Of a stretch of DNA of 64,000 nt, positions 2,120 to 59,241 are shown in pieces. This DNA comes from Acidobacteriota bacterium (GTDB taxonomy: Bacteria > Acidobacteriota > Thermoanaerobaculia > Gp7-AA8). The position numbers and the translations under genes were made by a program. Position 1 is the stretch's first letter. Each line of letters starts with the position of its first letter. The notes beneath the pieces are model-generated. The model searched no databases and had not been told where the DNA came from. It worked only from the letters and a program-made list of their open reading frames with translations. The DNA lies in NCBI GenBank assembly GCA_003223645.1, contig QHVT01000008.1, positions 248,001 to 312,000 on the forward strand, read 5' to 3'.

Positions 2120-5100
2120 ATGAAATCAAGACCCAGAATCCTCAGGGATGCTGGCCGGCTGCTGAGCATGATGCTCATCCTCCTGTTCATTACAGGAACG
2201 GCGGTCGCCCAGATCTCGACCGGATCGATCGCCGGTAAAGTCCTCGACCCGGACGGCAACCCGCAGGTGGGCGCCACAGTCACGCTCACCGGCGCCGGCG
2301 CGCCTAAGGTCGTCGTAACGGAAGCCGACGGAACGTTCCGCTATCCGAGCCTCCCGCCCGGCCAGTACAACCTCAAGGCCGAGCTCGAAGGAATCGGGAT
2401 TGCGACGACTCCGCTCGACGTCAATATCGGCCGTAATTCGAGCGTCACGATGAAGCTCGCGCCGACCCTGCAGCAGACCATTACGGTCACTGCGGAGACG
2501 CCGCTGCTCGACGTTCGGAAGACCGGCACGGGCGCAACGGTGACGAAGGTCGAGTTGGAGAGTATTCCGACCGCGCGCGATCCGTGGGTCATCCTGCAGC
2601 AGGTTCCCGGCGTTCTGACCGACCGCATCAACGTCGGCGGCAACGAATCCGGACAGCAGTCCTCGTTCGTCGGCAAGGGTGCGGGTGGCGACCAGGCGAC
2701 GTTCAACGTCGACGGCGTCAACATCACCGACATGTCGGCGCTCGGCTCGTCCCCGGCCTATTACGACTTCGATTCGTTCGAGGAAGTGCAAGTCGCCACG
2801 GGCGGCTCCGATCCGCGCATTCAAACCGCGGGCGTGCAGCTGAACATGGTGTACAAGCGCGGCACGAACGATTTTCGTGGTTCGGGCCGTTATTTCATGA
2901 CGCAGGGACGCGAGTCGACGGTCAGTGAGGAAGCGAAGCCGTATCTCAACTTCTTCAATGCCATCGACAGCGTCGACGACTACGGCCTCGAGCTCGGTGG
3001 CCCGGTCATCAAGGATCGTCTCTGGCTATGGGGCGCTTATGGCCACAACCAGATCGATCTCTTCGTTGCCCAGCCGACGACCAACAATCTCCCGCTTGGC
3101 GCCAACGATCCCAACGTCGGCATCCGTTTCACGGACAAGACCAAGCTCGAGACGCTCAACGGCAAGCTGAATGCTCAGATCACCACCAACAACAGCGCCG
3201 TCCTTCTGTATACGGACAGCGGCAAGACGAAGTTCGGCCGCAATGCGAGCCCGACCCGTCCTCCCGCCACGACGTACAACCAGGAGAATTACGGACCCAA
3301 GGGCAATTACAAGGTCGAAGACACGCACATTTTCTCGTCGAACTTCTACCTGACGGGCATGTTCTCGAAGACCAACGGCGGTTTCCAGCTCGTTCCCAAC
3401 AGCGGGCAGAACTGCACGACCTTCGAGTGCATCAACGGCTCCAGCACTCAGAACGCCTATCAGGACGCGGCAACCGCGGTGTGGGCCCGCTCGTTCGCGT
3501 ATGCGTTCATCAAACGTCCGCAGAGTCAGTATCGTGCCGACGGTTCCGCGTTCTTTGGAACGGGATCGCTCAATCACGAGCTGAAATTCGGCGCCGGCTT
3601 CCGTGAAGTCCAGCAGGAGACCCAGAGCAGCTGGGCCCACGATCAGTACTACATCGACTTCACGAACCTCGGCGCTCCGGACTGCTGCGGCGTGTATTTC
3701 CTGCGCCCCGGCAACAGCCACATCAAGGGCGACTACACCGATCTCTACGTCGGCGACACTCTGCTGCTCGGCAATCTCACGATCCAGGGCGGCCTCCGCT
3801 GGGATCAACAGAAAGGCCACTCCGGTCCCGCGAGCACCGTTGCCAACCCCGACGTTCCCAACCTCCTCCCGGCCGTTTCGCTCAATGTTCCGGACGAGAT
3901 CAAGTGGACCAGCATTTCCCCGCGTCTCGGATTCACCTACACGCTGGGCTCCACGCGCCGCACGGTTCTGCGCGGCGGCTACAACCGCTACGTCGACCAG
4001 CTCGGCACCGGCACCATGGGCGCGGCCAATCCGCTGAACGGCTATCAGTATCTCTACTACTACAACATCACCGACTCGAATCACGACCGGCACATCACCG
4101 GCGCCGAGCTCGCCGCGTCGCTCCTGAACGGCGCGTACTTCTACGGCAGCTACCACCTGGATCCGAACGATCCGCTGCATACCAAGCAGCTCACCCGCTT
4201 CGACAACGACATGAATCCGCCGCACACCGACGAATTCGTGCTCGGATTCGAGCATGAGCTGATGTCCGACTTCACGGTCGGCGCGAACTTCACGCATCGC
4301 AGCCTCAATGATTTCGTGGGAACGCGCTTCGAGAAGACCCAGGGACATGAAGACTGGTATTCGTCCGCGGATTACACGCTGCTCGGCAACACCACCGGCC
4401 ATCTGCCGCCGTGCCCCGTCAATCCGACGACCGGCAAGGTGCCGCGTCCTGACGGCTGCACGGGCGCCGCGTTCAGCGTCCCCGTGTACGTCCTCAAGGC
4501 CGGCATCTCCACGCCGACGTTCGGCGTCATCACCAACCTTCCCGATTACTCGCAGAAGTACGAAGGTGTCGAGCTGACGGCAACGAAGCGTATGTCGCAC
4601 CACTGGATGTTGCGCGGCAACGTCTCGTGGAACGACTGGACGCAGCAGGTCGGCCCCGACGCCATCACCGATCCGACGAACCTTCGCACGACCATCGGCT
4701 GCAACAACTGCGACGGCTCCACCGTCGTTCAGGGTTCCGGCACCGGCTCCGGCTCGAAGGGCGGCGTCTACATCAACTCGACCTGGTCGTACAACCTCAC
4801 CGGCGTCGTGCAGCTCCCGTGGCAGTTCAGCCTCGGCGCGAGCGCGATCGGCCGCGAGGGCTATCCGGTTCCGTACGTCTCCCGCGTCTTCACGGGAGCG
4901 AATACGATCGGCGGCGAAGGCTACAAGCAGGTGCTCGTCGCCGGTGTCGACGACTTCCGCCTGCCGGACGTCTTCAACCTCGACCTTCGCCTGGCGAAGG
5001 ATTTCCGTTTCAACCAGGTTGGTCTCACCCTGTCTGTCGACGCGTTCAACATCACGGACCAGCGCACCGTTCTGCAGCGCACCACGCGAGTCAACGATCG

Positions 5101-5188
5101 CCTGGCGCGTTCCTACACGGCCGCGAACCGTGTCGTCGAAGCGCAGGCCCCACGCGTGTTCCGCCTCGGCGCACGCCTCACGTTCTAA
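2120..5188 (+). CDS. TonB-dependent receptor with N-terminal carboxypeptidase-regulatory-like domain
   Basis: Signal peptide, GSIAGKVLDPDGNPQVGATVTLTG, plug-like region, long beta-barrel ending in aromatic residue (RLGARLTF); AAAGGAG RBS before ATG 2120. Confidence 0.9.
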   Translation: MKSRPRILRDAGRLLSMMLILLFITGTAVAQISTGSIAGKVLDPDGNPQVGATVTLTGAGAPKVVVTEADGTFRYPSLPPGQYNLKAELEGIGIATTPLDVNIGRNSSVTMKLAPTLQQTITVTAETPLLDVRKTGTGATVTKVELESIPTARDPWVILQQVPGVLTDRINVGGNESGQQSSFVGKGAGGDQATFNVDGVNITDMSALGSSPAYYDFDSFEEVQVATGGSDPRIQTAGVQLNMVYKRGTNDFRGSGRYFMTQGRESTVSEEAKPYLNFFNAIDSVDDYGLELGGPVIKDRLWLWGAYGHNQIDLFVAQPTTNNLPLGANDPNVGIRFTDKTKLETLNGKLNAQITTNNSAVLLYTDSGKTKFGRNASPTRPPATTYNQENYGPKGNYKVEDTHIFSSNFYLTGMFSKTNGGFQLVPNSGQNCTTFECINGSSTQNAYQDAATAVWARSFAYAFIKRPQSQYRADGSAFFGTGSLNHELKFGAGFREVQQETQSSWAHDQYYIDFTNLGAPDCCGVYFLRPGNSHIKGDYTDLYVGDTLLLGNLTIQGGLRWDQQKGHSGPASTVANPDVPNLLPAVSLNVPDEIKWTSISPRLGFTYTLGSTRRTVLRGGYNRYVDQLGTGTMGAANPLNGYQYLYYYNITDSNHDRHITGAELAASLLNGAYFYGSYHLDPNDPLHTKQLTRFDNDMNPPHTDEFVLGFEHELMSDFTVGANFTHRSLNDFVGTRFEKTQGHEDWYSSADYTLLGNTTGHLPPCPVNPTTGKVPRPDGCTGAAFSVPVYVLKAGISTPTFGVITNLPDYSQKYEGVELTATKRMSHHWMLRGNVSWNDWTQQVGPDAITDPTNLRTTIGCNNCDGSTVVQGSGTGSGSKGGVYINSTWSYNLTGVVQLPWQFSLGASAIGREGYPVPYVSRVFTGANTIGGEGYKQVLVAGVDDFRLPDVFNLDLRLAKDFRFNQVGLTLSVDAFNITDQRTVLQRTTRVNDRLARSYTAANRVVEAQAPRVFRLGARLTF

Positions 5189-5306
5189 CCCTCCGGGATG
5201 CGCGGGCGACGCAAGTCGCCCGCGCATGTTTCTCTCTCCGAGGGTTGCACCACTTTCTTCGCTGCTGCTGTGGAGACAGCGCTTCGTCGCGATAGCATCC
5301 GTTGCG

Positions 5307-5702
5307 ATGCGATTCCGCGATGCCGTCGCCGCAGAATTCGAGCGCAGACGAGCGCGCAACGCGCGTTACTCCATGCGCCGCTTCGCGCGCACCCTCGGCG
5401 TTCACCACAGCACCGTCTCGCGCATGATGCGCGGCTCGCGGCGCATGCCGTCGCGCACCATCGCCGGGATCGCGCGCCGGCTCGGAATGTCGCGTGCGCA
5501 GATCGACGAGTTCGTGATTCGCGAGGACGAGGCGGCCGTGCTTCAGGCGATCGCGCGTCCGTCCTTTCGTCCCGACTGCCGCTGGCTCGCGACCATCACC
5601 GGCATTTCCGTCGATCGCGTCAACATCGTCCTTCACACGCTGCTTCGCGCCGGCGCGCTGCGCATGCGCGCAATCCATCAGTGGGAGCTGACAAACGAAT
5701 GA
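5307..5702 (+). CDS. Small HTH DNA-binding protein
   Basis: YSMRRFARTLGVHHSTVSRMMRGSRRMPSRTIAGIARRLGMS helix-turn-helix; overlaps next gene by ATGA. Confidence 0.65.
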   Translation: MRFRDAVAAEFERRRARNARYSMRRFARTLGVHHSTVSRMMRGSRRMPSRTIAGIARRLGMSRAQIDEFVIREDEAAVLQAIARPSFRPDCRWLATITGISVDRVNIVLHTLLRAGALRMRAIHQWELTNE

Positions 5703-6124: not shown

Positions 6125-6630
6125 TGCGCGCGCGGATCGCCGGTTCGCGCGTGCGGATCGTCATTTCGCGCGTGCGGATCGGCCAGTTGCAAATGAAAAC
6201 AGGCCCGTCGCAAATGAAAACAGGCCAGTTGCAAACGAAAACAGGCCAGTTGCAAACGAAAACAGGCCCGTCGCAAACGAAAACAGGTCGGTTGCAAATG
6301 AAAACAGGCCGGTTGCAAATGAAAACGGGCCGGTTGCAAATGAAAACAGGCCCGTTGCAAACGAAAACAGGCCGGTTGCAAATGAAAACAGGCCGGTTGC
6401 AAACGAAAACAGGCCCGTTGCAAATGAAAACAGGCCGGTTGCAAACGAAAACAGGCCGGTTGCAAACGAAAACAGGCCCGTCGCAAACGAAAACAGGCCC
6501 GTCGCAAACGAAAACAGGCCCGTCGCAAACGAAAACAGGCCCGTTGCAAATGAAAACAGGCCGGTTGCAAATCATTTCGCGCGTGCGGATTCGCCATTCC
6601 GCGCGTGCGGATCGCCAGTTTCCGGCATAT
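6125..6630. repeat. 21-bp-register minisatellite with unit switch (core GTTGCAAAYGAAAACAGGCCR, about 18 units; flanks TTCGCGCGTGCGGATCGYC)
   Basis: Direct reading; KTG repeats 18 times in ORF 6124..6651; flanking GCGGAT motifs at 6132/6153/6174 are 21 bp apart. Confidence 0.95.
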
Positions 6631-8274: not shown

Positions 8275-8380
8275 GAGGCTCACGGGCTCATAGGCGCATG
8301 GGCGCATAGGCTCATAGGCGCATAGACCTAGAGGACGGTCCTCTATGAGCCTATGAGCCTGTGCGCCCATGAGCCTCCTC
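8275..8380. repeat. Tandem-repeat hairpin (8-bp units ATAGGCGC/ATAGGCTC and reverse complement)
   Basis: ctcataggcgcatgggcgcataggctcataggcgcatag ... ctatgagcctatgagcctgtgcgcccatgagcct. Confidence 0.9.
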
Positions 8381-10499
8381 ACGCCGGTAACTCGATTTCG
8401 AAGCGCGTTCCGCGCGGGTGGTTGTCGTGCACGTGGATCTGGCCGTCGTGGTCGCGCACGATGCGATGGACGATTGCGAGGCCGAGGCCGGTGCCGCGGG
8501 CTTTGGTGGAAAAGTATGGGAGGAACAACTTTTCTTTGTCGCTGTCGGGGACGCCGCGGCCGGGATCGGCGACTTCGATGACGACGCGGTGCGGCGCGCG
8601 GCGCGCGGAGACGCGGATCTCGCCGGACTCCGTCGCCTCGACCGCGTTCTTCAACAGATTGCCGACCGCGCGGCGGATTTGCTCGGGATCCATGAGCAGC
8701 TCGATGTCGGTCGCGACGTCGACACCGATCGTGACGTTCGGCTTCAGGTCACGATAGAGACTCGCGGCCTGCTGGAGAATCTCGGCGAGTTGCGCGTGGC
8801 GCAAATGGACGGCGGGCATGCGCGCGAATCGCGAGAACTCATCGACCATGCGCTTGAGCTGACTGACTTCGGAGACGATCGTCTGGCAGCCTTCGAGAAT
8901 CGCCGGCTCGCCCTCACCGAATTTTTTTGCGATGCGCTCGGCCGAGAGTTGAATCGGCGTCAGCGGATTCTTGATCTCGTGCGCGATGCGGCGCGCGGCT
9001 TCATTCCACGCCGCGAGCTTCTGCGCCTGTACGAGCTGCGTGGAGTCTTCCATCGCGAGGACCCAACCTGCGCCGCTGCCGAGGCGGGCGGCGGAGAGCT
9101 CGAGATAGCGGAGCTCGCCGCCGACGATGAGCGCGACTTCGCGTGAGCGCGCGCGGCGGCTGGTGAGCTCATTGAGTGCGAGCGCGACCGGCTCGAGATC
9201 GCCGCGCAAAATCTCGCGCAGTGTGTGGCGACCGCTGCCCTCAGCGGTCGCGGTGCCGCTGAGGGCAGCGGCACCCACAAACGGATCGAGGTGCAGCATC
9301 TGCAGCGCGGCGCGATTGATCGACAGCAGATGCAGGTCGTCGCTGAAGGCGATGATGCCGGTGCCGACGCTCTCCAGCACCGTGGCCATGAAGCGATTCG
9401 TCTCCGTCAGCTGCCGCCGTTGTTGCGCGAGCTGTCCGGACATGTCGTTGAACGAGTCGATCAAACGTCCGACTTCATCCGTCGCCTCCAGCTCGACGCG
9501 ATGTCCCACCTCTCCTTCCGCGAGCCGCGCCGTCGCCTCGGCCAGCGCCTTGATCGGAATCGTGATCCGCCGCGACGCATAGATCGACGTCCACAACGTC
9601 CCGAACAAAATCGCGAGCGTCACCGCGAGGAAGAGCATCGTCTGCGACGCCTTCAATCGCTGGCGCGCGGACGAGAGCTGCTGGAAGTTCTGGTGCGCGA
9701 TGATCGACTCGTCGATCATCCGCGACATCGTCGACGGAATGAACACGCCGGCGATCGCGACCTGGTCGCCGAACGGTATGCCGGTGCGAATCCACTTGCC
9801 GCTCAGCACGATGTCGATCTTCACCGCGCGTCCCTTGCGCGCGACTTCTTCGAAGAAGCGCGACGACGGATCGGCGACTTCGTGGATCGGCGCGCGCGGA
9901 TCCGCCTGCGCCTTGATCAGGATTCCGCCGCGATAGACGGAGACGAGATCGACGTTGTGAAACTGCCGCACGTGCGCGAGCACGGGATCGATCTTCGCGG
10001 CGTCGCGCGCATCCGTGCTCGATGCGATCTCGCGCGCCGCGCCCGCGGCCGTGTCGGCGGCCTGGTCCTGCGCCATCTGCGCGATCCGTTCGCTGTTGCG
10101 AAGAATGACCGCGACCGGAGTCGTGAACCAGCGATCGATCGAGACGCGCAGCAAATCCGTCGCGACGAGAAAGAGAATGACGACGGGGAAGAGCGACGTC
10201 GCGATGTACGTGAGCACGAGCTTCGTGCGAAAGCGCGAGCCGATGAGTCCGCGCTGCCGCTCCAGCACCAGCTTCACGATGCCGCGCAGCAGCACGAAGA
10301 GGATGCCGACGATGAGCAGCAGGTTGATGTTCGCGAGCACGAACAACAACAGCTGATTGTTCAGCGCCTCGGGGCTCAGCTCTTTCGCCTGCTCGATGAG
10401 GTAGTAGACGAGGCTCGTGACCGCGAGGATCACGAGAGGCACGCTGATGATGAAGCGCGGATCCTTGCGATAGCGGAGAACGAGCGCGCCGACTCTCAT
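8379..10499 (-). CDS. ntrY: NtrY-like sensor histidine kinase (TM, HAMP, PAS-like, HisKA, HATPase)
   Basis: WNEAARRIAHEIKNPLTPIQLSAERIAKKF, HAMP region, GRGVPDSDKEKLFLPYFSTKARGTGLGLAIVHRI. Confidence 0.9.
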   Translation of the reverse strand: MRVGALVLRYRKDPRFIISVPLVILAVTSLVYYLIEQAKELSPEALNNQLLLFVLANINLLLIVGILFVLLRGIVKLVLERQRGLIGSRFRTKLVLTYIATSLFPVVILFLVATDLLRVSIDRWFTTPVAVILRNSERIAQMAQDQAADTAAGAAREIASSTDARDAAKIDPVLAHVRQFHNVDLVSVYRGGILIKAQADPRAPIHEVADPSSRFFEEVARKGRAVKIDIVLSGKWIRTGIPFGDQVAIAGVFIPSTMSRMIDESIIAHQNFQQLSSARQRLKASQTMLFLAVTLAILFGTLWTSIYASRRITIPIKALAEATARLAEGEVGHRVELEATDEVGRLIDSFNDMSGQLAQQRRQLTETNRFMATVLESVGTGIIAFSDDLHLLSINRAALQMLHLDPFVGAAALSGTATAEGSGRHTLREILRGDLEPVALALNELTSRRARSREVALIVGGELRYLELSAARLGSGAGWVLAMEDSTQLVQAQKLAAWNEAARRIAHEIKNPLTPIQLSAERIAKKFGEGEPAILEGCQTIVSEVSQLKRMVDEFSRFARMPAVHLRHAQLAEILQQAASLYRDLKPNVTIGVDVATDIELLMDPEQIRRAVGNLLKNAVEATESGEIRVSARRAPHRVVIEVADPGRGVPDSDKEKLFLPYFSTKARGTGLGLAIVHRIVRDHDGQIHVHDNHPRGTRFEIELPA
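9225..9278 (-). repeat. PE-1 copy a: 54-bp palindromic element in frame inside ntrY-like gene
   Basis: GTGGCGACCGCTGCCCTCAGCGGTCGCGGTGCCGCTGAGGGCAGCGGCACCCAC; encodes VGAAALSGTATAEGSGRH on minus strand. Confidence 0.95.
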
Positions 10500-11061: not shown

Positions 11062-11133
11062 GTGGAGCGGCGGCCGCCCTCGGCCGCCGATTTCTCGCGA
11101 GAGGCCGGCGGCCGAGGGCGGCCGCCGCTCCAC
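11062..11133. repeat. PE-2 palindromic element (GTGGAGCGGCGGCCGCC...GGCGGCCGCCGCTCCAC), intergenic
   Basis: Inverted repeat read directly; abuts lpxC stop codon. Confidence 0.9.
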
Positions 11134-12766: not shown

Positions 12767-13825
12767 ATGACGACGAAAAACATCGTGCACGTTGTCGGCA
12801 CGGGCACCATCGGCGAGCCGCTCATCGGTTTTTTCTCCGACTTCAAAGACAAGTGGGGCATCGACGAGGTCACGTTCCACAAACGGACTCCGGCGCCGAA
12901 CGACCGTCCGATGGTGAATCATCTGATTCAGCGCGGCGCGAAGTTGGTCGCCGACGATGAATCACGCGACGAATTCGCGCGGCTCGGACATCGCGTCGCG
13001 TTCACGACCGAGGAGGCGCTGGAGCGCGCGACGGTCGTCGTCGATTGCACGCCCGCGGGACTCGACAACAAGGCGAAGTATTACGAGCGGATCAAAGGAC
13101 CGAAGGGATTCCTCGCGCAGGGATCGGAGTTCGGCTTCGGCAAGCCGTACGCGCGCGGCATCAATGAAGAAGTGCAGAGCGTGGACGATCGCTTCGTGCA
13201 GATCGTCTCGTGCAACACGCACAACATCTCCGTCCTCATCAAGACCCTCGGCACGAGCGACGGCAAGATGAGCCTCGCCGCCGGCCGCTTCGTCTGCATG
13301 CGTCGCGCGAACGACGTGAGCGATACGAAGTCGTACATCGCCGCGCCGGAAGCGGGCAAGCACGACGATCCCGACTTCGGCACGCACCACGCGCGCGACG
13401 CGTACCACGTCTTCCAAACGCTCGGCGAGAAACTGGACCTCTTCTCCTCGGCGATCAAACTGCCGACGCAGTACATGCACACGCTCTGGTTCGATCTCGA
13501 CCTGAAGCACGACACGACGCTCGAGGAAGTGAAGGCCGCGCTGCGCAACAACCCGCGCGTCGCCTGCACGAACAAGCGCGCGGTCAACCAGATCTTCTCC
13601 TTCGGCCGCGACCACGGCTACTTCGGCCGCATCCTCTCGCAGACCGTCGTGCCGGTGTCGACACTGGCCGTGCCGAGCGCGCGCAAGATCGTCGGCTTCT
13701 GCTACACGCCGCAGGACGGCAACTCGCTGCTCTCCTCGATCGCCGCGACGCTGCGGTATCTGGACGCGACGAAGCTCGAAGAGCGGCTGGATGCGCTGCG
13801 GCCGTACATCTTCAGAGAGATCTAG
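12767..13825 (+). CDS. Archaeal-type (type II) glyceraldehyde-3-phosphate dehydrogenase-like protein
   Basis: N-terminal Rossmann VHVVGTGTIGEPL, VVDCTPAGLDNKAKYYE, SCNTHNI resembling the SCNT catalytic region of type II GAPDH. Confidence 0.6.
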   Translation: MTTKNIVHVVGTGTIGEPLIGFFSDFKDKWGIDEVTFHKRTPAPNDRPMVNHLIQRGAKLVADDESRDEFARLGHRVAFTTEEALERATVVVDCTPAGLDNKAKYYERIKGPKGFLAQGSEFGFGKPYARGINEEVQSVDDRFVQIVSCNTHNISVLIKTLGTSDGKMSLAAGRFVCMRRANDVSDTKSYIAAPEAGKHDDPDFGTHHARDAYHVFQTLGEKLDLFSSAIKLPTQYMHTLWFDLDLKHDTTLEEVKAALRNNPRVACTNKRAVNQIFSFGRDHGYFGRILSQTVVPVSTLAVPSARKIVGFCYTPQDGNSLLSSIAATLRYLDATKLEERLDALRPYIFREI

Positions 13826-13900
13826 GACGAATAGGACAGATAGGACAAATAGGACGTCCTAGAATGTCCTATTCGTCCTATCAGTCCTATTCGTCCTACC
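13822..13900. repeat. Tandem-repeat hairpin (9-bp ATAGGACRA units and reverse complement)
   Basis: taggacgaataggacagataggacaaataggacgtcctagaatgtcctattcgtcctatcagtcctattcgtccta. Confidence 0.95.
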
Positions 13901-14257: not shown

Positions 14258-15540
14258 CCCACGTGCTCTTCGTCGCCGCGTTGTTGTCGCTGCCGCTGTT
14301 CGGCCTCTGGACGTGGCGTCTCGAAGCCGTGCGTCGCGCCGACCTCGCCGCGCGCGTCGCGGTGGCGGGGGCGGCCGGGGCGGTCACGGTGGCGGTGGTG
14401 ATGAGCGTGTTGTCGCTCGTGCATGTGCGGTGGACGCGCATCACGCTGCTCGTCATTTTCGGCGCGGTCCTGTGGAGCGGCGCCCGCTTCGGGCGCCGGA
14501 CTCTCGCGATTCGGCGGCCGAAGCGGCCGCCGCTCCACTGGATGACGATCGCTTTTGTTGCATTGACCTGCTACGGCATCCTCACCGCGCGCGAGAGCGC
14601 GGGCGACTTGCATTTCTTCTGGGGACCGAAGGCGATTCACTTCGCCGAGGCGCGCGGGATCGACGTCGCGTTTCTCGCGAACCACGCGCATCCGAATCCC
14701 GACTATCCGCCGCTCGTGCCGCTCGTCTACGCATTCGCGACGCTCGTCGCCGGCGGCTTCTCGTGGTGGGGCGCGCTCCTCGGCAGCGCGTTGTGCATGA
14801 TCGCCTGCATCGCCATCGTCCGCGGCTTCACCGGCGACGACTTCGGCGCGCTGCTTCTCGCCGCGATTTACGCGTGGACGTTCGCCGTCGGCTACGTTCC
14901 CGGCGGTGCGGACGCTCCGCTGCTCCTCTTCGAAACGCTCGCCCTCATCGCGCTCACGCGCAACGCCGACGCCCTCGCGGCGATCGGACTCGCCGGCGCC
15001 GTGTTCACGAAAGTCGAAGGCGCGACGTTCGTCATCGCCGTCGTCCTCGCGATCGTTCTCGTGCGTCGCGACTTCAAGCGCTCTTTCAGAGTCGCCGCGC
15101 CGGCGTTCGTCCTCTTCGCGGCGTGGCTCGCGTTTCTGCTCGTCAACCATCTGATTTTCGGCTACGGCGAAGCGCCCGCACCGATCCACTTCGACGTCAT
15201 CGCAAAGACGCTCACGCTCGTTGCGCAGTCCGCGCAATATCGGATCGCCGCGCTGCCGTGGATCGTGCCGATCGTGCTGCTCGTCTGGCGCCGCGATCCG
15301 CTGCCGCTGGTCGTCGCGGTGCTCACATTTGGCGTCGCGATCTTCTTCTACATCCACAACCAAAACCCCGACTGGTGGATCTCCGCGTCCGCGCTGCGGG
15401 TGCTCCTGACTCCGCTGACCGCGCTCTTGATCGCTGTGCTACAGTCCCGCGCCGATGGCGTGGTTCCGGAAGGAAAAGAAGCCGAAGGAAGCGGTCGAGA
15501 AATCGGTCGCGATGCCCGAGGGGCTGTGGGTCAAGTGTGA
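14254..15540 (+). CDS. Polytopic membrane protein, GT-C-like/hypothetical
   Basis: Many hydrophobic segments; HFFWGPKAIHFAEARG and DYPPLVPLVYA suggest GT39-like loop. Confidence 0.6.
   Translation: MTHVLFVAALLSLPLFGLWTWRLEAVRRADLAARVAVAGAAGAVTVAVVMSVLSLVHVRWTRITLLVIFGAVLWSGARFGRRTLAIRRPKRPPLHWMTIAFVALTCYGILTARESAGDLHFFWGPKAIHFAEARGIDVAFLANHAHPNPDYPPLVPLVYAFATLVAGGFSWWGALLGSALCMIACIAIVRGFTGDDFGALLLAAIYAWTFAVGYVPGGADAPLLLFETLALIALTRNADALAAIGLAGAVFTKVEGATFVIAVVLAIVLVRRDFKRSFRVAAPAFVLFAAWLAFLLVNHLIFGYGEAPAPIHFDVIAKTLTLVAQSAQYRIAALPWIVPIVLLVWRRDPLPLVVAVLTFGVAIFFYIHNQNPDWWISASALRVLLTPLTALLIAVLQSRADGVVPEGKEAEGSGREIGRDARGAVGQV
14472..14538. repeat. PE-2-type palindromic element inside membrane-protein ORF
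   Basis: gtggagcggcgcccgcttcgggcgccggactctcgcgattcggcggccgaagcggccgccgctccac. Confidence 0.85.
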
Positions 15541-19449: not shown

Positions 19450-20733
19450 ATGACCACCATTCACGAGGAAACTCTCGCCGCGACAGGCCACGATTTTCTC
19501 CACCGGCTGATCGCGGAAGTCGATCGCGAGATCGCGGATGCGATCCAGCTGGAAACGCAGCGGCAGAACGACACGCTGGAGCTGATTGCCTCGGAGAACC
19601 ACGTGTCGAAGGCTGTGCTGACTGCGATGGGATCGGTCTTCACGAACAAGTACGCCGAGGGCTATCCGGGCAAGCGTTACTACGGCGGCTGCGGCCCCAC
19701 CGACATCGTCGAGAACATCGCCATCGATCGCGCGAAGAGACTCTTCGGCGCCGAACACGCCAACGTCCAGCCGCACTCCGGCTCGCAGGCCAACATGTCG
19801 GTCTACTTCGCAATGCTCAAGCCCGGCGACACGATCATGGGCATGGACCTCTCGCACGGCGGACACCTCACGCACGGACATCCGCTGTCGTACAGCGGCC
19901 GCGATTTCAAAGTCGTCGCGTACGGCGTGCGCAAAGAGGATGAGCTGATCGACTACGACGAGATGGCGAAGATCGCCGAGGAGAACAAGCCGCGGATGAT
20001 CATCTGCGGAGCGTCGGCGTATTCGCGGGTGATCGACTTCAAGCGCATTCGCGAGATCGCGGACAGCGTCGGCGCGCTGATGATGGCCGACATCGCGCAC
20101 ATCGCGGGGCTCGTCGTCACGAACCATCATCCCTCGCCCGTTCCGTACGCGGACTTCGTCACGACGACGACGCATAAGACGCTGCGCGGACCGCGCGCGG
20201 GCCTCGTACTTTGCAAGGAAAAGTACGCGAAGGACCTGGACCGCGCCGTCTTCCCGGGCGTGCAGGGCGGGCCGCTCGTGCACATCATCGCGGCGAAGGC
20301 CGTCGCGTTCAAGGAAGCGCTCGCGCCGGAGTTCGCGGAGTATCAGGGACAGGTCGTGAAGAACGCGAAGGCGCTCGCGGCCGCGGTGAAAGACACCGGC
20401 TTCCGCATCGTCTCCGGCGGCACCGATAACCATCTCTTCATGACCGACGTCTTCTCGAAAGGCATCACCGGCAAAGACGGGCAGAACATGCTCGAGGCCG
20501 CGAACATCACCGTCAACAAGAACACGATCCCGTTCGATCAGAACAAGCCGATGGTCGCGTCCGGAGTGCGCATCGGCACGCCCGCCGTCACCACGCGCGG
20601 CCTGCGCGAAGCGGACATGAAAACGATCGCCACGCTCATCGCGCGCGTGCTCGACTCGAAAGGCGACGCCGGCGTGATCGACGCGGTGAAGAGCGAAGTG
20701 AAGCAGTTGTGCGATCGATATCCGATTTACTAG
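19450..20733 (+). CDS. glyA: Serine hydroxymethyltransferase
   Basis: [54 protein letters not shown]. Confidence 0.98.
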
Positions 20734-20806
20734 GACTGATAGGACGAATAGGACTTACAGGACAAGTCCTATCGGTCCTATTCGTCCTATCAGTCCTATT
20801 CGTCCT
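20731..20806. repeat. Tandem-repeat hairpin (9-bp ATAGGACGA units and reverse complement)
   Basis: taggactgataggacgaataggacttacaggacaagtcctatcggtcctattcgtcctatcagtcctattcgtcctat. Confidence 0.95.
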
Positions 20807-21493
20807 ATGAAACGCTATCCCTACTACCCCATCTATCTCGACATCGAAGACCACGCCGTCCTGATCATCGGCGGCGGAAACGTCTGCGCACGCAAGGCGG
20901 AGACGATGATGAAGTACGGTGCGCGCGTAACGATCGTCTCGCCGGAATTCACCGGCGAGATCGAAGCGTGGGCGCGCGACGGACAACTCGCGCTCAAACG
21001 CAAACGCTACGACGCGAGCGATCTGGAAGGCGCGACGATCGTGATCGCGTCGACGGACGACACGAGCGTGAACGAACAAATCGCCGCTGACTGCCGCGCG
21101 CGTCGCATCCCTGTCAACGTCGTCGACGTCACGCCGCTCTGCGAGTTCATCGTGCCGGCGATCATCGACAAAGGATCAGTGCACATCGCGATCTCGACCG
21201 GCGGCAAGTCGCCCGCGCTGGCGCGGACGCTGAAAGAAGACCTGCAGCGCCTCATCGGTCCGGAGTACGCCGAGGTGAACGATCTCCTCGGCACGCTGCG
21301 CGACAGTGCGAAGCGCGTGCTGCCGACCGACGTCGATCGCAAGCATTTTTTCGACGGCATCATCGCGCGCGGCATTCTCGAGATGTTGCGCGAAGGGCGG
21401 CGCGCGGACGTGCGCGACGCGATCATCGCCGCGTGCAGCGAGGCGGGCGTCGCCGTCAGCGATGCGGTGCGCACGATGAATGATGGCGAGTAA
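20807..21493 (+). CDS. Precorrin-2 dehydrogenase/sirohydrochlorin ferrochelatase (siroheme synthase N-terminal type)
   Basis: YLDIEDHAVLIIGGGNVCARKAETMMKYGARVTIVSPEF; CEFIVPAIIDKGSVHIAISTGGKSPALARTLKEDL. Confidence 0.93.
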   Translation: MKRYPYYPIYLDIEDHAVLIIGGGNVCARKAETMMKYGARVTIVSPEFTGEIEAWARDGQLALKRKRYDASDLEGATIVIASTDDTSVNEQIAADCRARRIPVNVVDVTPLCEFIVPAIIDKGSVHIAISTGGKSPALARTLKEDLQRLIGPEYAEVNDLLGTLRDSAKRVLPTDVDRKHFFDGIIARGILEMLREGRRADVRDAIIAACSEAGVAVSDAVRTMNDGE

Positions 21494-26029: not shown

Positions 26030-26086
26030 GACATCGTAGGACGTCCTAGGATGTCCTATTCGTCCTATAAGTCCTATCAGTCCTAC
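25992..26086. repeat. Tandem-repeat hairpin (9-bp ATAGGACGA units and reverse complement), overlapping 3' end of ORF 23750..26029
   Basis: tataggacgaataggacaaataggacgataggacatcgtaggacgtcctaggatgtcctattcgtcctataagtcctatcagtcctac. Confidence 0.95.
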
Positions 26087-33018: not shown

Positions 33019-33098
33019 ATGCAGATGGCAGATGGCGGATGGCAGATGGCAGAAAATGCAACCGACTTCGCCATCCGCCGTCTGCCATCCGCCATCTC
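33019..33098. repeat. Tandem-repeat hairpin (7-bp GATGGCR units and reverse complement)
   Basis: gcagatggcagatggcggatggcagatggcag ... gccatccgccgtctgccatccgccatc. Confidence 0.95.
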
Positions 33099-33130
33099 TT
33101 CTTCGCACTACCCTCTCATACAATCCCCTC

Positions 33131-36943: not shown

Positions 36944-38269
36944 TCACCGCGGCGCGACGGACACTTCGAAGTAGCGATCGCGCGCGATGCCGGCGAGGCG
37001 CGCGCGATCGCGCGCGAACGTAACCGCGCCGCGACCTTCGCGCACGATCACGCGCGCATTCGGATTCGACTCGCGACGGAGATACGCGGCGTGCGCGCCG
37101 AGGCGATCGTCGATGAGGGCGTTCGGCGCGAATTGCAGTGCAGCGATCGGCGGCGAGATCGTGCGATGCACGATCGTCAGCGCGGGCCACGTCCAGACGA
37201 TCAGCAACGCGATCAATGCAGCAAGCGCGATCGCGCGGAATCTGCGCAGCGCGTCGATCCCCTCGGCCGCGAAGATCGCGATGAGCGGCATGTAGGCGAT
37301 CGAGAAACGGCTCGTGCTGTGAAAGTCGAGGTAGAGCCACGCGAAGATCGCGAACGGGCCGAAGATCGCCAGCGCGAGCAGAACGTGCGCACGTCTTCGC
37401 GCGAGCGCGATGAGCGCGAGCAGCGCGAGGACGATGTTGATGGCGGGCGCGCGGAACGGACGGAGGAAGAAGTCGTCCGCGACTTTGATCAGCGACGGGC
37501 GGATCGGCGCGAGGAACGAGTCGGTCGTGCGGATGTAGTGCTCGTGCTCGCGTAATGCATCGCGATAAGAGGACCATCCTCCGCTCGCGATCGCGGCGCC
37601 GCCGTAGCTTGCGATCAGGATGATTGCGAGGAGAAGGACAGCTGCAATTCGTCGTTTGCTGTGCACCACTCCAAGAACGAATGGAACGAGTCCGATCAGC
37701 AGATTCTGCGGACGAAATCCTGCGGCGATGCCGAGGACGATTGCGCCGGCGAGAAGTGCGCGGGTGTCGCGGCGGCCGCGCAGGAGCAGCGCGCAGGCGA
37801 AGAGCGACAGCACGAGTGACGGCACGTCGCTGAAGGCGGTGCCGCCGTAGAACCAGACGTTGGGCATGAACGCGAGCACGAGCGCGGAGCCGAAGGCGAC
37901 GAAGAACGATGCGCCGAGCTCACGCGCTAAAAAATACGCGGCGGGAAAGACGAACAGCGAGGCGACGAACACGATCGCCTGCAAGGCGTGGAACTCGTCG
38001 TGAAACGGAACGAGCTTGACCATTGCTTTTGCAAGCGCGATGAAGAGCGGGAAGCCGGGCGGCTGCGGGTGATAGAGACGCACGTCGTAGTCGCGCACGG
38101 CGAGCGCGAAGAGCGCTTCGTCCCAGTCCCACAGCGTGCGTGAGAGCGCGGGCCAGCGCGTGATCGCCACGAGCGCGCTCGCGATCCAGACAATGTGGCG
38201 ACCGCTGCCCTCAGCGGTCGCGGTGCCGCTGAGGGCAGCGGCACCCACATTTACTGCTGCGGGTTCCAT
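36944..38269 (-). CDS. GT-C/GT39-like polytopic membrane protein; N-terminus carries PE-1 copy b
   Basis: LWDWDEALFALAVRDYDVRLYHPQPPGFPLFI; paralogous to next gene. Confidence 0.75.
   Translation of the reverse strand: MEPAAVNVGAAALSGTATAEGSGRHIVWIASALVAITRWPALSRTLWDWDEALFALAVRDYDVRLYHPQPPGFPLFIALAKAMVKLVPFHDEFHALQAIVFVASLFVFPAAYFLARELGASFFVAFGSALVLAFMPNVWFYGGTAFSDVPSLVLSLFACALLLRGRRDTRALLAGAIVLGIAAGFRPQNLLIGLVPFVLGVVHSKRRIAAVLLLAIILIASYGGAAIASGGWSSYRDALREHEHYIRTTDSFLAPIRPSLIKVADDFFLRPFRAPAINIVLALLALIALARRRAHVLLALAIFGPFAIFAWLYLDFHSTSRFSIAYMPLIAIFAAEGIDALRRFRAIALAALIALLIVWTWPALTIVHRTISPPIAALQFAPNALIDDRLGAHAAYLRRESNPNARVIVREGRGAVTFARDRARLAGIARDRYFEVSVAPR
38195..38248 (-). repeat. PE-1 copy b: 54-bp palindromic element, identical to copy a
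   Basis: Same 54-bp string as 9225..9278; encodes VGAAALSGTATAEGSGRH. Confidence 0.95.
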
Positions 38270-40041
38270 GAGAGCGCGTCCACGCGCAGGCCGAGGTCGC
38301 GCGCGTCGTCGGAGCCGCCGCGCGCTTTCGGATTCACCGTTCCGCTGGTGAGAATGCGCAGCTCGTTCGGCGCGTCCTTGCGCGACGGCACGGTCCACGT
38401 CTTGTCGATGTCCGACTTCGTCGCCGTGAATCGCTCGATCGTCGCGCCGTTCAGTTGCACTTCGATCGCCGGCGGCGCGTCGAGTCCGTCGAGTGGCGCG
38501 TACGCGCGCAGCCGCAGTTTCCCTTTGCCGCGCAGCACCGGCAGCTTCGTCGTCGACTCCGCGCCCATCCAGCGGAACGCGCCTTCATCGCCGTACCAGC
38601 CGTGGCCGAACACGACGACCGACGATGCGCGGCCGACCGATGCTTCGAAATTGCGGCGGCGCATCACGCGCCACAGCCTCTTGTGCGGCCAGACCCAGTT
38701 GTGCGCGCCGGGCACGACTTTCAGGTCGAGCACCCACGCGTCGCCGGACAGCAGCGAGATTTGATCGGGCTCGTCGTAGTACACCGTGTTCGGACGATCG
38801 CCGAGAAAAAAATGCGCCTGCGGCTCGATGCCGCCGTGCACGAACACGAGCTCGCCCGGCTTGGCGTTGCGCAGAATCCACTGCAATGCGGACACGAGCG
38901 GCGCGTCGCTCTTGCGCTGCAGCTGCAGCGCAGGCCACGTCCATACGACGAACAGGACCACGAAGAGCGCGCAGAGCGTCGCTTGCACGCGCGGACTACG
39001 GCGCGCGATCACGCCGAGTCCGTCGGCGGCGAGGACGGCATGCACGCACAAGTACGCGATCGAGTAGCGCGTCGCGGCGGCGAAGTCGAGCTGGAACAGC
39101 ACGAGGATCGCGAATGGAACGAACATCGCGAACAGCAGCAGCGGCGCGCGGCGGCGCGTCGCGATCGCGTGGATGAGCGAGACGAGCGCGAGGATCGCCA
39201 GCGCGACCGTCTGCTGCCGCTGCTGAATCGGCCAGAGGAAAAAGATCTTCGCGATCTGTCCGAGCGGCGGCCGATAAGGGTTGTGATACGAGTCGATGTC
39301 GTGCACCCACTTGCTCTGGATGCGCACGGCTTCGAGGTAGTCCTTCATTCCGCCCGACTCGATTGCGGCGCCGGCGTAGCTTCCGCCCGCAATCGCGCCG
39401 CCGATGAGAATTGCCAGCAGGACCGCGACGAACGAGCGGCGTCGGATCTGGTAGTACGTCGCGAGCAAGGCGGGCACGACGCCGATCAGCAGATTCGTCG
39501 GACGGATGCCGGCGGCGATGCCGAGCACCGCCGCGCCGAGGAGGTACGCGCGCGTGTCATCGCATCCGCGCAGAAGCAGCGCGCACGCGATGAAGCAGAC
39601 CGCAATCGCGGGGACATCGCTGTATCCGGTTCCGCCGTGCAGCCAGACATTCGGCAGAAACGCGAACAGCGCCGCGCCGCCGACCGACGTCGTGAAGTCG
39701 AAGCCGAGCTCGCGCGCGAAGAAGAAGAGCGCGGGAAACAGGCACATCGCGCCGAGGACCACCACGACCTGCAGCGAGCGGAACTCGGAGACGCCGAGGA
39801 AATGCACGACCTTGGCGGCGGCGACGAAGAGCGGATAGCCGGGCGGGTGCGGGTGATAGGCGGCGACGTTGAAGTCGCGCACGCCGAGGGAGAAGAGACC
39901 CTCGTCCCAATCAAACATCGAGTGCGCGAGCGCGAGGAGCCGCGTGAGCGCGATGACGACGGTCAGGATGAGGAGAACGTTCTTCTGCGCGCGAGACAAA
40001 CGGCACCATTCTCGCAAATTTGGCCCGGCGATGGCCGGCAC
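38251..40041 (-). CDS. GT-C/GT39-like polytopic membrane protein
   Basis: MFDWDEGLFSLGVRDFNVAAYHPHPPGYPLFVAAAK; many TM segments. Confidence 0.8.
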   Translation of the reverse strand: MPAIAGPNLREWCRLSRAQKNVLLILTVVIALTRLLALAHSMFDWDEGLFSLGVRDFNVAAYHPHPPGYPLFVAAAKVVHFLGVSEFRSLQVVVVLGAMCLFPALFFFARELGFDFTTSVGGAALFAFLPNVWLHGGTGYSDVPAIAVCFIACALLLRGCDDTRAYLLGAAVLGIAAGIRPTNLLIGVVPALLATYYQIRRRSFVAVLLAILIGGAIAGGSYAGAAIESGGMKDYLEAVRIQSKWVHDIDSYHNPYRPPLGQIAKIFFLWPIQQRQQTVALAILALVSLIHAIATRRRAPLLLFAMFVPFAILVLFQLDFAAATRYSIAYLCVHAVLAADGLGVIARRSPRVQATLCALFVVLFVVWTWPALQLQRKSDAPLVSALQWILRNAKPGELVFVHGGIEPQAHFFLGDRPNTVYYDEPDQISLLSGDAWVLDLKVVPGAHNWVWPHKRLWRVMRRRNFEASVGRASSVVVFGHGWYGDEGAFRWMGAESTTKLPVLRGKGKLRLRAYAPLDGLDAPPAIEVQLNGATIERFTATKSDIDKTWTVPSRKDAPNELRILTSGTVNPKARGGSDDARDLGLRVDALSWNPQQ

Positions 40042-40092: not shown

Positions 40093-41184
40093 ATGATCTC
40101 CGCGGAAAATTCTCGAAAGGGCGTGCGACGCCGCTGGTACCTCGATCTACACGGCATCCGGCGCGAAGGCACGAAAGAGTCCGGCTTTTCGTATCGTCTT
40201 CCGAACGGCTCGATCGTCAGCGATGACAAGGTGCTGGCCCGGATCCGCAAGCTGCGCATTCCGCCGGCGTGGCGGGACGTGCGCATCGCCCGCGGCGACG
40301 CCGCGCCGCTCCAGGCCGTCGGCGTCGACAAGAAAGGACGGACGCAGTATCTCTACCACTCGCGCTTCCGCGCGCAGCGCGAGGAAGCGAAGTTCAAGCG
40401 CGTGGTGGAGTTCGGCGAGTCGCTGCCCGCGCTGCGCCGCCGCGTGCGCGCGGACTTGAACCGTGGAAAGCACGCCTCCCGGCGTGACGACGCCCTGCAG
40501 CGCGAGCGCGTGCTGGCGTCGATGGTGCGCCTCATCGATCAGGGATTCTTCCGCATCGGCAACGACAAGAGTGCGAAGTCGGAGTCGACGTTCGGCCTCT
40601 CGACGATCCGCGGCTCGCATGTGAAAGTCGATCGCGACGTCGTGCTGTTCGAGTACGTCGGCAAGTGGCGGAAGAAACAGAAGCGCGCGGTTCGCGACCA
40701 CGACGTCGCGACGATCATCGAGCAGCTCAAGAAAAAGCGCGGCGCGGAGCTGTTCAAGTTCCAGCAGAACGGCAAAGTGTGCGACGTGAAAGACCGGCAC
40801 GTGAACGAGTACATCCAGTCGATCATCGGCCGCGACTTCACCGCAAAAGACTTCCGCACCTGGGCCGGCACGTTGTTGTGCTCGATCGCGCTCGCATTGC
40901 AGGAGCAGGGCGCGAGCAAAGCGGAGCGCAAACGACGCCTGCGCAAAGCGATCACCGCCACGGCGGAGCAGCTCGGCAACACGCCCGCGGTCTGCCGCTC
41001 GTCCTACATCTGCCCCCGGCTCATCGACGAATACACGAGCGGACGGCCATTCGAGATGCTGCGCAAAACGCGGCGGGGAAACCCGGTTTCGCGAACGGGG
41101 CTGTCCATCGAGGAGAAGGCGCTGTTGAAGTTTCTGCGAGAGACCATCGCGGATCGGCGGCGTGCGCCTCGGGCCGCCGCGTGA
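40093..41184 (+). CDS. DNA topoisomerase IB (poxvirus/bacterial type)
   Basis: IPPAWRDVRIA; GLSTIRGSHVKVDRDVVLFEYVGKW; DFRTWAGTLLCSIAL; CRSSYICPRLIDEY. Confidence 0.93.
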   Translation: MISAENSRKGVRRRWYLDLHGIRREGTKESGFSYRLPNGSIVSDDKVLARIRKLRIPPAWRDVRIARGDAAPLQAVGVDKKGRTQYLYHSRFRAQREEAKFKRVVEFGESLPALRRRVRADLNRGKHASRRDDALQRERVLASMVRLIDQGFFRIGNDKSAKSESTFGLSTIRGSHVKVDRDVVLFEYVGKWRKKQKRAVRDHDVATIIEQLKKKRGAELFKFQQNGKVCDVKDRHVNEYIQSIIGRDFTAKDFRTWAGTLLCSIALALQEQGASKAERKRRLRKAITATAEQLGNTPAVCRSSYICPRLIDEYTSGRPFEMLRKTRRGNPVSRTGLSIEEKALLKFLRETIADRRRAPRAAA

Positions 41185-41312
41185 GGCGCAGAGGCTCAGA
41201 GGCTCAAAGGCTCAGAGAACCCCTATGAGCCCCTGCGCCTCTGAGCCTCTGCGCCCCTGCGCCTCTGCGCCCCTGCGCCTATGAGCCTATGAGCCTGTGA
41301 GCCTCTGCTCCT
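41185..41312. repeat. Tandem-repeat hairpin (8-bp AGGCTCAG/AGGCGCAG units; longer reverse-complement arm)
   Basis: gaggcgcagaggctcagaggctcaaaggctcagag ... ctatgagcccctgcgcctctgagcctctgcgcccctgcgcctctgcgcccctgcgcctatgagcc. Confidence 0.95.
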
Positions 41313-47419: not shown

Positions 47420-47503
47420 GTCAAAGGCGCAGAGGCGCAAAGGCGCAGGGGCTCAGAGAAGCTGTGAGCCCATGCGCCTCTGAGCCTCTGCGCCTGCAAG
47501 CGC
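47420..47503. repeat. Tandem-repeat hairpin (8-bp AGGCGCAA/AGGCGCAG units and reverse complement)
   Basis: caaaggcgcagaggcgcaaaggcgcaggggctcagag ... gtgagcccatgcgcctctgagcctctgcgcctg. Confidence 0.9.
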
Positions 47504-49842: not shown

Positions 49843-49913
49843 GTGGAGCGGCGGCCGCTCTCGGCCGCCGGTTTCTCGCGAGAGGTCGGCGGCCGAGGGC
49901 GGCCGCCGCTCCA
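49843..49913. repeat. PE-2 palindromic element, intergenic
   Basis: gtggagcggcggccgctctcggccgccggtttctcgcgagaggtcggcggccgagggcggccgccgctcca. Confidence 0.9.
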
Positions 49914-53440: not shown

Positions 53441-56032
53441 TTACCGCACCTCCGGCGGGATGATGTCCGAGCCGAGGACGCTGTTGTCGAAGTAATAACG
53501 GTCGTTTGCGCGGCGGTCGCCGGACGCGAAGAGGCGTTTGAGCCGGACGCCGACATACCACGTGCGCTGCCAGTAGTTGGTGAACTCCGGATCGCCGACG
53601 ATCGACTCGAAGCGTCCGGAACGTCCGTAGTTGTAGGAGCCGACGACGTCGAAGGCCTCGCCGACCGGCACTGTCACGTTCGCGCCCCACGCGCGGATGT
53701 CGGAGTCGCGATCGCCTTCCCACGCGCGGCCGGCCTTGAACTCGGCCGACCAGAACACGCGGTCATTGAAGTTCTGCCCGACCTGCACGACGCCGGCGAG
53801 CGAGTTGTAATCGTTGGGCGACCAGTAGCGGTTCGAGCGGAAGTCGTACGACAGCCACCGCCCGTCCGCCTTCAGCGCGACCCATGGTTTCTTGAGGACT
53901 TTGAAGGCGACGAGTCCGTGCGCGGCGGCGCGGCGGTTGTCGTCGGAGATGAATCCGTATGACGCATCGCCGAGGAGCGACCAGAAACCGCCGGAGTCAT
54001 AGTCATAGTGGCCGCGCACGTCGTTGATGGAGATCGGACTGTTCACGACGCTGGCGAGATTCGAGACGTCGTAGATGAGATCGTAGTGATTGATGTCGAG
54101 TGCCGCGCGGCTCTGAATGCTCGGCAGCCAGGTCGCGCCGGCTCCCAGGAACGGACGCGTGCCGAGTCCGCGATCCCAGAACGTCATGCCGACGCGCCCG
54201 CGGAACGTGAGCTGATCGGTTTGACGATACGCGGCGCCGGCGCTGGCGACGTTCGCGTCCGCGCTCGTGCCGCCCTGCTCGAAGCTGTGGCGACCGACCG
54301 CGCCCTGCACCGCGAGGCGCGGATTCAGCCAGTGCTCTCCTTCGAGATCGCCGAGGCGCGCGGTGAAATCATTCGAGTTCGTTTCCATCGTGTAGCGCGC
54401 CTGCAGTTGCGTTCCGGGATGTCCGAAGCGCGCGCGCTCCAACTCGTGATGCGCGTCGGTGAACGTCGAGTCCATCGACAGCGCGCTGTTCTGCTCCGTG
54501 ATCGCGTGATCGCGCCAGCCGTACCAGCGATAGATCTGTCCCTGATGGAAGTGCGCGCGCGCCGGAACGTCGGGATAGAGCTCCGCGCGCGGTGAGCTGG
54601 AGAGATCGGTGAGCAGATTGAATTCGTGCAGCGCGGGGATGTAGTCCTCGCCGTACTCCAGCGTCTGCGCGTATTCGAGGCGCAGGTCGGGGCGATCGGG
54701 AAGATCGCGCAGCACCATTTGATATTGCTTTTGCGATTCGTCGTAGCGGCGATCCCAGCTGAGCACGCGCGCGTAATTGAGTCGCGCGTTCGTGTCCTTC
54801 GGCATCATCGTCAGATAGTCGGCGTACAGCTCGGCGGCCTGGCGATTCGCGCCGAGGCCCGTGTAGCCTTTGGCGAGATCGAGGAGCTGCATTTGGCGGC
54901 CGCTGCCCTCGGCGGTCGCGGTGCCGCTGAGGGCAGCGGCACCCACATCGGAGGACGACGTCATTGGATTTTGCAGGGGATTTTGCAGGGGATTTTGCAG
55001 GGGCCCCTGTGCGTACAACGCGCGGCGGCGCTCGTCGAGCTTCGCGATTTCTTCCTTCTGCTTCGCGAGCGCGTTCTTTTCGACATCGGAGAGATCGGGA
55101 ACGTCGCGGCCGTTCGCGTGCGTGCGGACGAAGGCGATGTCCTTGAGTGCCCGGCTGTACTGGCCGGAGTCGTAGTAGAGCCGCGCGCGCTCGACGCGAA
55201 GTGCGAGATTGAAATCGTCGTCCGCGATCTGCTGGTCGAGCTTCTCGATGCGGATCAGCGGCGACGCTTCGAGATCGCGGAGCATCGCGCGCGCTTCGTA
55301 CGCGTTCGGATGGCTGTTCGTGAAGTCGCGCAGCACGACGACGGCACCGGCGCGGTTGCCGCTCCACGTCTGCGCGTTCGCCAAGGCGATCGCCGTCTCC
55401 TCGGAATTCGCTGACTGGTGCGCGCGCTCGAGCCGCGTCACGGCCGCGCGCTCCGCGCCCATCCAGGAGAGCAGTCGCCCGTATTCGAGCTCCAGCTCCG
55501 GCGTCGATTTCTCGGCGAGCAATTTCGAGTAGCGGCGCTCCGCTTCGTCGTGTTGTCCGCTCCATGCGAGCGCGCGCGCCTGCCGCAGCCGCACGTCGTA
55601 GCTCGGATCCGACAGCGCGCCGTAAATCGGGAGCGCGTCGTTGTAGCGGCCCGCGGCAAAGTACGCGTCGGCGAGCTCCTGGCGGTCCGCTTCCGTCGCT
55701 CCTTCGCGTTTTGCCGCCGCTTGCGCGTCGTCGATGCGCTGCTTCGCGATCAAATCGAGCTGCGCCGTGGAGCGGTCGCGCAGATCGATGGCCGCGGCGT
55801 CATTCGGATTCTCGACGAGCAGCCGGGACGCGAGCTTCTTCGCTTCGTAATAGCGTCCGACGCCCGCGTACAACTGCGCGAGCTCCAGCTGTTCCTCGTG
55901 TGTCGCCGTTCCCGCGTTGAACGACGACTCCAGGTTCGCGATTCGATTCGGTGCGTTGTCGTCATTGGCGAAGGCCGCGAACGAACACACCATCACCACA
56001 CACATCACAACTATTGTTCTGCTGAGCCTCAT
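53441..56032 (-). CDS. TPR protein with C-terminal outer-membrane beta-barrel (PgaA/YaiO-like); contains PE-1 copy c
   Basis: N-terminal signal and TPR units (AQLYAGVGRYYEAKKLASRLL), C-terminal alternating beta-strand pattern. Confidence 0.75.
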   Translation of the reverse strand: MRLSRTIVVMCVVMVCSFAAFANDDNAPNRIANLESSFNAGTATHEEQLELAQLYAGVGRYYEAKKLASRLLVENPNDAAAIDLRDRSTAQLDLIAKQRIDDAQAAAKREGATEADRQELADAYFAAGRYNDALPIYGALSDPSYDVRLRQARALAWSGQHDEAERRYSKLLAEKSTPELELEYGRLLSWMGAERAAVTRLERAHQSANSEETAIALANAQTWSGNRAGAVVVLRDFTNSHPNAYEARAMLRDLEASPLIRIEKLDQQIADDDFNLALRVERARLYYDSGQYSRALKDIAFVRTHANGRDVPDLSDVEKNALAKQKEEIAKLDERRRALYAQGPLQNPLQNPLQNPMTSSSDVGAAALSGTATAEGSGRQMQLLDLAKGYTGLGANRQAAELYADYLTMMPKDTNARLNYARVLSWDRRYDESQKQYQMVLRDLPDRPDLRLEYAQTLEYGEDYIPALHEFNLLTDLSSSPRAELYPDVPARAHFHQGQIYRWYGWRDHAITEQNSALSMDSTFTDAHHELERARFGHPGTQLQARYTMETNSNDFTARLGDLEGEHWLNPRLAVQGAVGRHSFEQGGTSADANVASAGAAYRQTDQLTFRGRVGMTFWDRGLGTRPFLGAGATWLPSIQSRAALDINHYDLIYDVSNLASVVNSPISINDVRGHYDYDSGGFWSLLGDASYGFISDDNRRAAAHGLVAFKVLKKPWVALKADGRWLSYDFRSNRYWSPNDYNSLAGVVQVGQNFNDRVFWSAEFKAGRAWEGDRDSDIRAWGANVTVPVGEAFDVVGSYNYGRSGRFESIVGDPEFTNYWQRTWYVGVRLKRLFASGDRRANDRYYFDNSVLGSDIIPPEVR
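54893..54946 (-). repeat. PE-1 copy c: 54-bp palindromic element, three differences from copies a and b
   Basis: ttggcggccgctgccctcggcggtcgcggtgccgctgagggcagcggcacccac; encodes VGAAALSGTATAEGSGRQ. Confidence 0.95.
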
Positions 56033-59222: not shown

Positions 59223-59241
59223 ATTTCTCCTGCCCGCTACC

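Follow-up and report, generated by a model that had tools for sequence, protein, structure and literature searches.

We report that a 54-bp palindromic sequence, repeated in unrelated genes of an Acidobacteriota bacterium, is a minimal REPIN-like element made of two inverted GTGG-headed REP hairpins. The complete explanation that we put forward, and regard as probable, is that this element derives from an 88-bp form, replaces host codons where it arrives and is tolerated there as a linker. The window analysed here is a stretch of 64,000 nucleotides (C4:248001-312000) of a 6.38-Mb draft genome in 51 contigs that is 96.7% complete. An earlier note on it had proposed that the palindrome is mobile, encodes a peptide and spreads through ORFs, and this proposal is supported by 42 near-identical copies in unrelated genes, by their single reading phase and by their absence from relatives.

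Three copies lie in the window, all on the minus strand. Copy a (9225..9278, or 9224-9279 with the constant flanking T and A) forms codons 408-425 of an NtrY-like sensor kinase (8379..10499, minus strand) with HAMP, weak PAS_7, HisKA and HATPase_c domains, and falls, as had been recognised before, in its PAS-like region. Copy b (38195..38248) is identical to copy a, an agreement that extends even over 56 nt, and copy c (54893..54946) differs from both at three positions, in line with the original description. All three copies had been placed inside genes; this is clear for copy a and for copy c, which resides in an 863-aa TPR-repeat protein (53441..56032, minus strand), whereas for copy b it depends on the choice of start codon. 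The longest ORF around copy b (36944..38398, minus strand) encodes a membrane protein that has no Pfam match and is a paralogue of the ORF at 38251-40041; the copy begins 2 bp past the stop of the upstream gene, spans codons 8-25 in the called version of the following ORF, and may be located at a gene start. Matches to the arms number six in the window, compared to 0.12 expected by chance.

The window is also home to repeats of other kinds. These include a 21-bp tandem repeat at 6181-6571 (18.6 copies, 92% matches, several frames open on both strands), arrays of 8-bp units at 8276-8383, 41184-41312 and 47426-47502 (CCTATGAG / CCTCTGAG / CCTCTGCG) that recur at other genome loci, and palindromic arrays of 9-bp units such as TAGGACGAA / TAGGACAGA at 13814-13900, 20722-20809 and 25983-26087. 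A hairpin array of the form GGCTCTGA..TCAGAGCC with spacings alternating between 86 and about 193 bp occupies 49098-49714, and a 7-bp unit, CCGCCAT, is repeated 13 times at 59241-59333, with related short tracts at 33021-33111.

A genome-wide search allowing at most three arm mismatches retrieved 42 copies of the 54-mer and none of a reversed control pattern. Eighteen of the copies are identical over the full 54 bp, and the gap between the 16-bp arms is always 8 nt, as a search with gaps of 6-12 nt uncovered no alternative spacing. Repeats are prone to misassembly and the draft comprises 51 contigs, which makes an assembly artefact, named from the outset as a way in which the proposal could fail, worth weighing. 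We consider it scarcely conceivable: each of the 42 copies has a flanking context of its own, together they are spread over more than 20 contigs and mostly well away from contig ends, and both flanks of a copy share one coding frame and are homologous to relatives. Outside this genome the element was not encountered; 119 relatives contain neither 54-bp copies nor longer copies with exact arms, and scanning GTDB genomes and viral contigs with the pattern yielded no 54-mer. Where relatives of the NtrY host gene carry a name, they come from metagenome bins of Acidobacteriota, several of which bear the label Thermoanaerobaculia.

The anatomy of the element is that of a REP doublet. The arms of 16 bp and the loop of 8 nt are present as first described, but a single inverted repeat is a poorer reading than two 26-nt hairpins in inverted orientation separated by a 2-nt spacer, namely GTGGGTGCCGCTG-CCCT-CAGCGGCAC followed by GTGGCGACCGCTG-CCCT-CAGCGGTCG. 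Read along the strand that encodes the peptide, the order is GTGG GTGCCGCTG CCCT CAGCGGCAC - CG - CGACCGCTG AGGG CAGCGGTCG CCAC. In copy a, sequence and fold assign the first REP hairpin (GTGGGTGCCGCTG-CCCT-CAGCGGCAC) to 9253..9278 and the second, inverted one (CGACCGCTG-AGGG-CAGCGGTCG-CCAC) to 9225..9250, both on the minus strand. The 56-nt unit, comprising the 54-mer and the flanking T and A, has a predicted fold of a two-hairpin clover (z = -7.2). GTGG, a GTAG-like 5' tetranucleotide of the kind that marks REP hairpins, heads both hairpins in most of the 42 copies, and the unit ends are GTGG..CCAC. A T precedes the element in 41 of 42 copies and an A follows it in all 42; beyond these the sole other clear bias is for A/T at positions -2 and +2. 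Across the 42 copies there is no target-site duplication, since the flanks read T..A rather than TA..TA and no direct repeat is found, and Rfam has no match to the element. Two inverted REPs recurring as one unit (26+2+26 nt) and integrating without target-site duplication are features that define REPINs.

The earlier note had called for a search for a RAYT or other transposase, and the Y1_Tnp family was searched. The genome contains one RAYT-like (Y1_Tnp) gene, at C4:53122-53433, whose sequence shows an HUH motif of the form HVH and a C-terminal tyrosine; the REPINs on either side of it, however, belong to a different family, GTGGAGCGGC, which has 232 units genome-wide, and the Y1_Tnp search of the draft genome recovered no RAYT gene flanked by the 54-mer's own REP. 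Members of this second family (GTGGAGCGGCG...) also occur in the window at 11062-11133, 14465-14543, 49843-49913 and 57053-57132. Merging the two families was considered and rejected because strict T..A flanks are not a feature of the RAYT-linked REPINs. That the sole RAYT-like gene carries a different REP family is a point against our explanation, in which a cognate transposase would be putative; this RAYT may act on the 54-mer in trans. A genome of the same genus has neither a Y1_Tnp gene nor copies of the 54-mer. We infer that the element moves through single-stranded DNA, by RAYT-like enzymology or by repair capture; in the latter case, single-stranded REPIN DNA captured during gap or end repair would fit both the lost host bases described below and the one- or two-base A/T joints.

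These observations also bear on a different origin of the element, namely as a MITE mobilised by a DDE transposase that prefers T/A targets, with a likeness to REPINs in shape only. The terminal inverted repeats and the T..A flanks, kept in all but one copy, would suit a MITE, as would the failure to find a cognate RAYT and the lack of strict T..A flanks in the RAYT-linked family. DDE-transposon MITEs, however, are recognised by a target-site duplication such as TA, which the 54-mer does not have, and neither the 26+2+26 REP-doublet anatomy nor the GTGG head, common to the RAYT-linked family and to reported REPs, is in keeping with such an origin; we regard it as unlikely, though with a real minority chance of being correct.

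The 54-mer also has longer relatives in the genome. In at least 51 units its arms are set 30-60 nt apart; these units keep the GTGG..CCAC ends and T..A flanks of the 54-mer, and one subfamily of 88 bp yields the 54-mer exactly when 34 bp are taken out. The two classes occupy different space: 45 of 49 longer units are intergenic, as is usual although not strictly defining for REPINs, whereas 38 of 42 copies of the 54-bp class are genic (Fisher p=3e-16; p=3e-12 with five doubtful copies discounted). In the scenario that we envisage an 88-bp intergenic REPIN would have lost its 34-bp spacer to give the 54-bp unit, the direction from 88 to 54 bp being our interpretation of the relationship. This would have changed the length from 3n+1 to 3n, and given the latter together with four of six open frames, a copy that lands in a gene need not destroy it. 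The 54-mer would then be a non-autonomous mobile element that has recently spread in both orientations. Two further observations concern the longer class. At positions 3068-3160 of locus L140 a 93-bp member is accommodated in frame (31 codons) inside a long gene. Elsewhere, a larger repeat (GTGAAAATTTCCAAGAGCTTT|GTGG..CCAC|ATTCTCAG) has a longer REPIN at a fixed point (L051, L053, L105, L109, L110, L111, L123 and L127); among the DNA of about nine loci examined there were no empty sites, every one containing the longer element, and its fixed position suggests that both spread together.

The genes that have received the 54-mer are unrelated in function. They encode the NtrY-like kinase, an ornithine cyclodeaminase family protein, an AMP-binding ligase, PurL, a poly(A)-polymerase/CCA-type enzyme, PanC, a TonB receptor, an ATP-dependent DNA ligase, a histidine kinase, a saccharopine dehydrogenase, an RlmI-like methyltransferase, a transaldolase/Pgi protein, an IspE-like GHMP kinase and a secretin, where names follow the Pfam domain and any detail beyond it is our reading of the sequence. 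The host domains are still recognised by Pfam, and several inserts lie within the domain envelopes. In the NtrY PAS-like region as modelled by AlphaFold2 (mean pLDDT 79.9), where the insert corresponds to residues 54-71 of the modelled piece, the core of the insert (residues 61-68, pLDDT below 50) is predicted to be a loop devoid of regular structure. In the gene at 3967-5661 (minus strand) of locus L096, which has a NuoM-like C terminus, a threefold tandem PYPSTVA.AAP lies immediately ahead of the 54-bp element and extends into it.

A gene caller based on codon usage, trained on the genome itself, places 38 of the 42 copies in genes, or 33 on a conservative count; gene starts are uncertain at copy b (L064), L067, L091 and L092. 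Thirty-seven of the 38 genic copies share a single phase, phase 0, 23 in one orientation and 14 in the other. The 18 residues that they encode read as a small-residue linker, VGAAALSGTATAEGSGRH or VATAALSGRGAAEGSGTH depending on orientation. Placement after codon position 3 gives this small-residue peptide, while placement after position 1 introduces a stop and after position 2 a peptide rich in Trp, Pro and Arg. Within coding DNA here, T^A falls most often at codon positions 1-2, with 2-3 and 3-1 about equal to one another, so that target availability alone would not produce 37 of 38; the surviving copies would be those whose codons are in phase and whose insert serves as a small-residue linker. 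Survival of this kind does not account for everything. The genic share of 79-90% exceeds the 60% predicted under tolerance of one in three genic placements and the 30% expected for WTAW sites in phase 0, and the excess of genic copies over random placement with loss of frame-breakers has a p-value between 0.01 and 1e-10 depending on the null. The genic excess is thus greater than simple tolerance explains.

The common phase of 37 of 38 genic copies and their excess over neutral nulls could also indicate that the peptide is a functional motif under selection, such as a shared domain, a tag or an interaction peptide, rather than a mobile passenger. The changes among in-frame copies speak against this, as 27 are nonsynonymous and nine synonymous, close to the 72% nonsynonymous expected by chance, which implies that the peptide is not conserved and is free of purifying selection. 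Furthermore, it takes two forms according to orientation, its hosts are unrelated, some copies lie between genes, and homologues of the host proteins lack it; a selected motif is accordingly very improbable, and we infer that the peptide is a tolerated passenger.

The homologues merit closer attention. When the joined flanks were used as queries in relatives, the homologues retrieved were devoid of the peptide, and the objection that it might be a conserved feature of these proteins does not hold. Alignment of the homologues with each host protein after removal of its 18 residues revealed that the host is too short at the junction. The available relatives are unanimous in 19 of 24 genes, each being at least two residues longer there, compared to 7.7% of control positions, which are other positions in the same alignments (p=2e-17), and among genes with at least four relatives the excess is seen in 9/11 versus 2.4% of controls; the all-relatives criterion was framed after the result of a plain sign test had been seen, and these p-values, like the one for indel-variable positions given below, were not pre-planned. 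The aligned NtrY homologues without the insert exemplify the effect, with all 12 named relatives longer by four to seven residues and ten of them by exactly four. In PanC the relatives are exactly six residues longer (6/6), in the RlmI-like protein likewise six (5/5), in Tal-Pgi two (5/5) and in PurL 11 to 13 (4/4). Five of the 24 genes display no consistent shortening (L062, L066, L083, L087 and L102). The proteins of the sister genome are about 45-86% identical to those of the host.

Since relatives are longer once the insert is taken out, we read the element as replacing about 6-40 bp of host DNA, so that its arrival in most of the genes tested would be a replacement and not a simple insertion. 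At four junctions a flanking codon that otherwise looks conserved now has A as its first base (E to K, D to N, H to N and L to M), which suggests that the A comes with the element. The T and A are flush at nearly every junction, making later trimming unlikely, and the host bases seem to have been lost in the same event that brought the element. The simpler course of events would be insertion at T^A, with the tolerated sites being length-variable loops and the missing residues reflecting ordinary shortening of loops in this lineage. Every junction tested is at a position where some relative has an indel, the loops of the host proteome tend to be shorter (positive values make up 78% of the nonzero control positions, and with 17/21 at the junctions the sign test is not significant), and at three other junctions the flanking A is ancestral. 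However, in PanC, the RlmI-like protein and Tal-Pgi the relatives all have one loop length from which this genome alone departs, exactly at the junction, the NtrY relatives agree on exactly four additional residues in ten of 12 cases, and at positions that are indel-variable the excess is still found in 8/9 compared to 13% of controls (p=7e-7). Simple insertion is for these reasons quite improbable. A more specific version of replacement, that the 54-mer is a coding-compatible REPIN integrating by exchange, with a host segment of ~6-40 bp swapped between T and A, is a serious candidate that we hold tentatively and somewhat short of an even chance.

Several known systems resemble the 54-mer in part. 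REPINs and GTAG-type REP dimers with RAYTs (Bertels and Rainey 2011, PMC3116915; Di Nocera 2013, PMC3733652) likewise consist of inverted REP hairpins with a GTRG-like head, a short spacer and a clover fold, and exist in many near-identical copies in genomes with a RAYT-like gene; the GTGG head itself is carried by most GTAG-20 repeats of O. terrae (PMC3733652). The 54-mer differs in its 2-nt spacer and 54-bp length, in being nearly all intragenic, in replacing host codons and in coexisting with a RAYT-like gene that belongs to another REP family. Intragenic REP dimers are already known from Opitutus terrae, Thauera, Rickettsia conorii and others, where they encode 20-30 residues within the ORFs of unrelated proteins, but most REPs of these organisms are intergenic (PMC3733652), whereas the 54-mer is ~90% intragenic and in a single phase. 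Loss of host residues is not described for intragenic REP dimers in the parts of that paper available to us, and in the portion of the literature examined we found no precedent for host-sequence replacement by REP, RPE or IS200/IS605 elements. Rickettsia palindromic elements (RPEs) are, like the 54-mer, palindromic, mobile, peptide-coding and inserted in frame in conserved proteins; they are described, however, as about 100-150 bp long and from Rickettsia and Wolbachia (PMC3767692, PMC2229807), in contrast to 54 bp and relatives within the Acidobacteriota rather than the Rickettsiales. The division between the 54-mer and the longer class is reminiscent of the Neisseria Correia/NEMIS elements of 107 and 155 bp, of which the short open form is genic and the long form with stops almost only intergenic (PMC2229807). 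NEMIS have TA ends and a target duplication, however, while the 54-mer is built as a REP doublet, is flanked by T..A and shows no duplication.

REPIN integration has been described as unresolved, and REPINs are usually located in intergenic DNA that cannot be aligned. With more than 30 recent copies in alignable genes, filled sites of the 54-mer can be compared with conserved homologues, and the loss of host DNA at the site constrains any integration mechanism. The copies also form a natural collection in which conserved proteins, such as PurL, the IspE-like kinase and PanC, have received an 18-residue linker. If the exchange reading were true, the genic excess would represent a real preference for coding DNA. 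The two length classes moreover provide a case in which a single internal deletion of a mobile element accompanies a move from intergenic to genic space.
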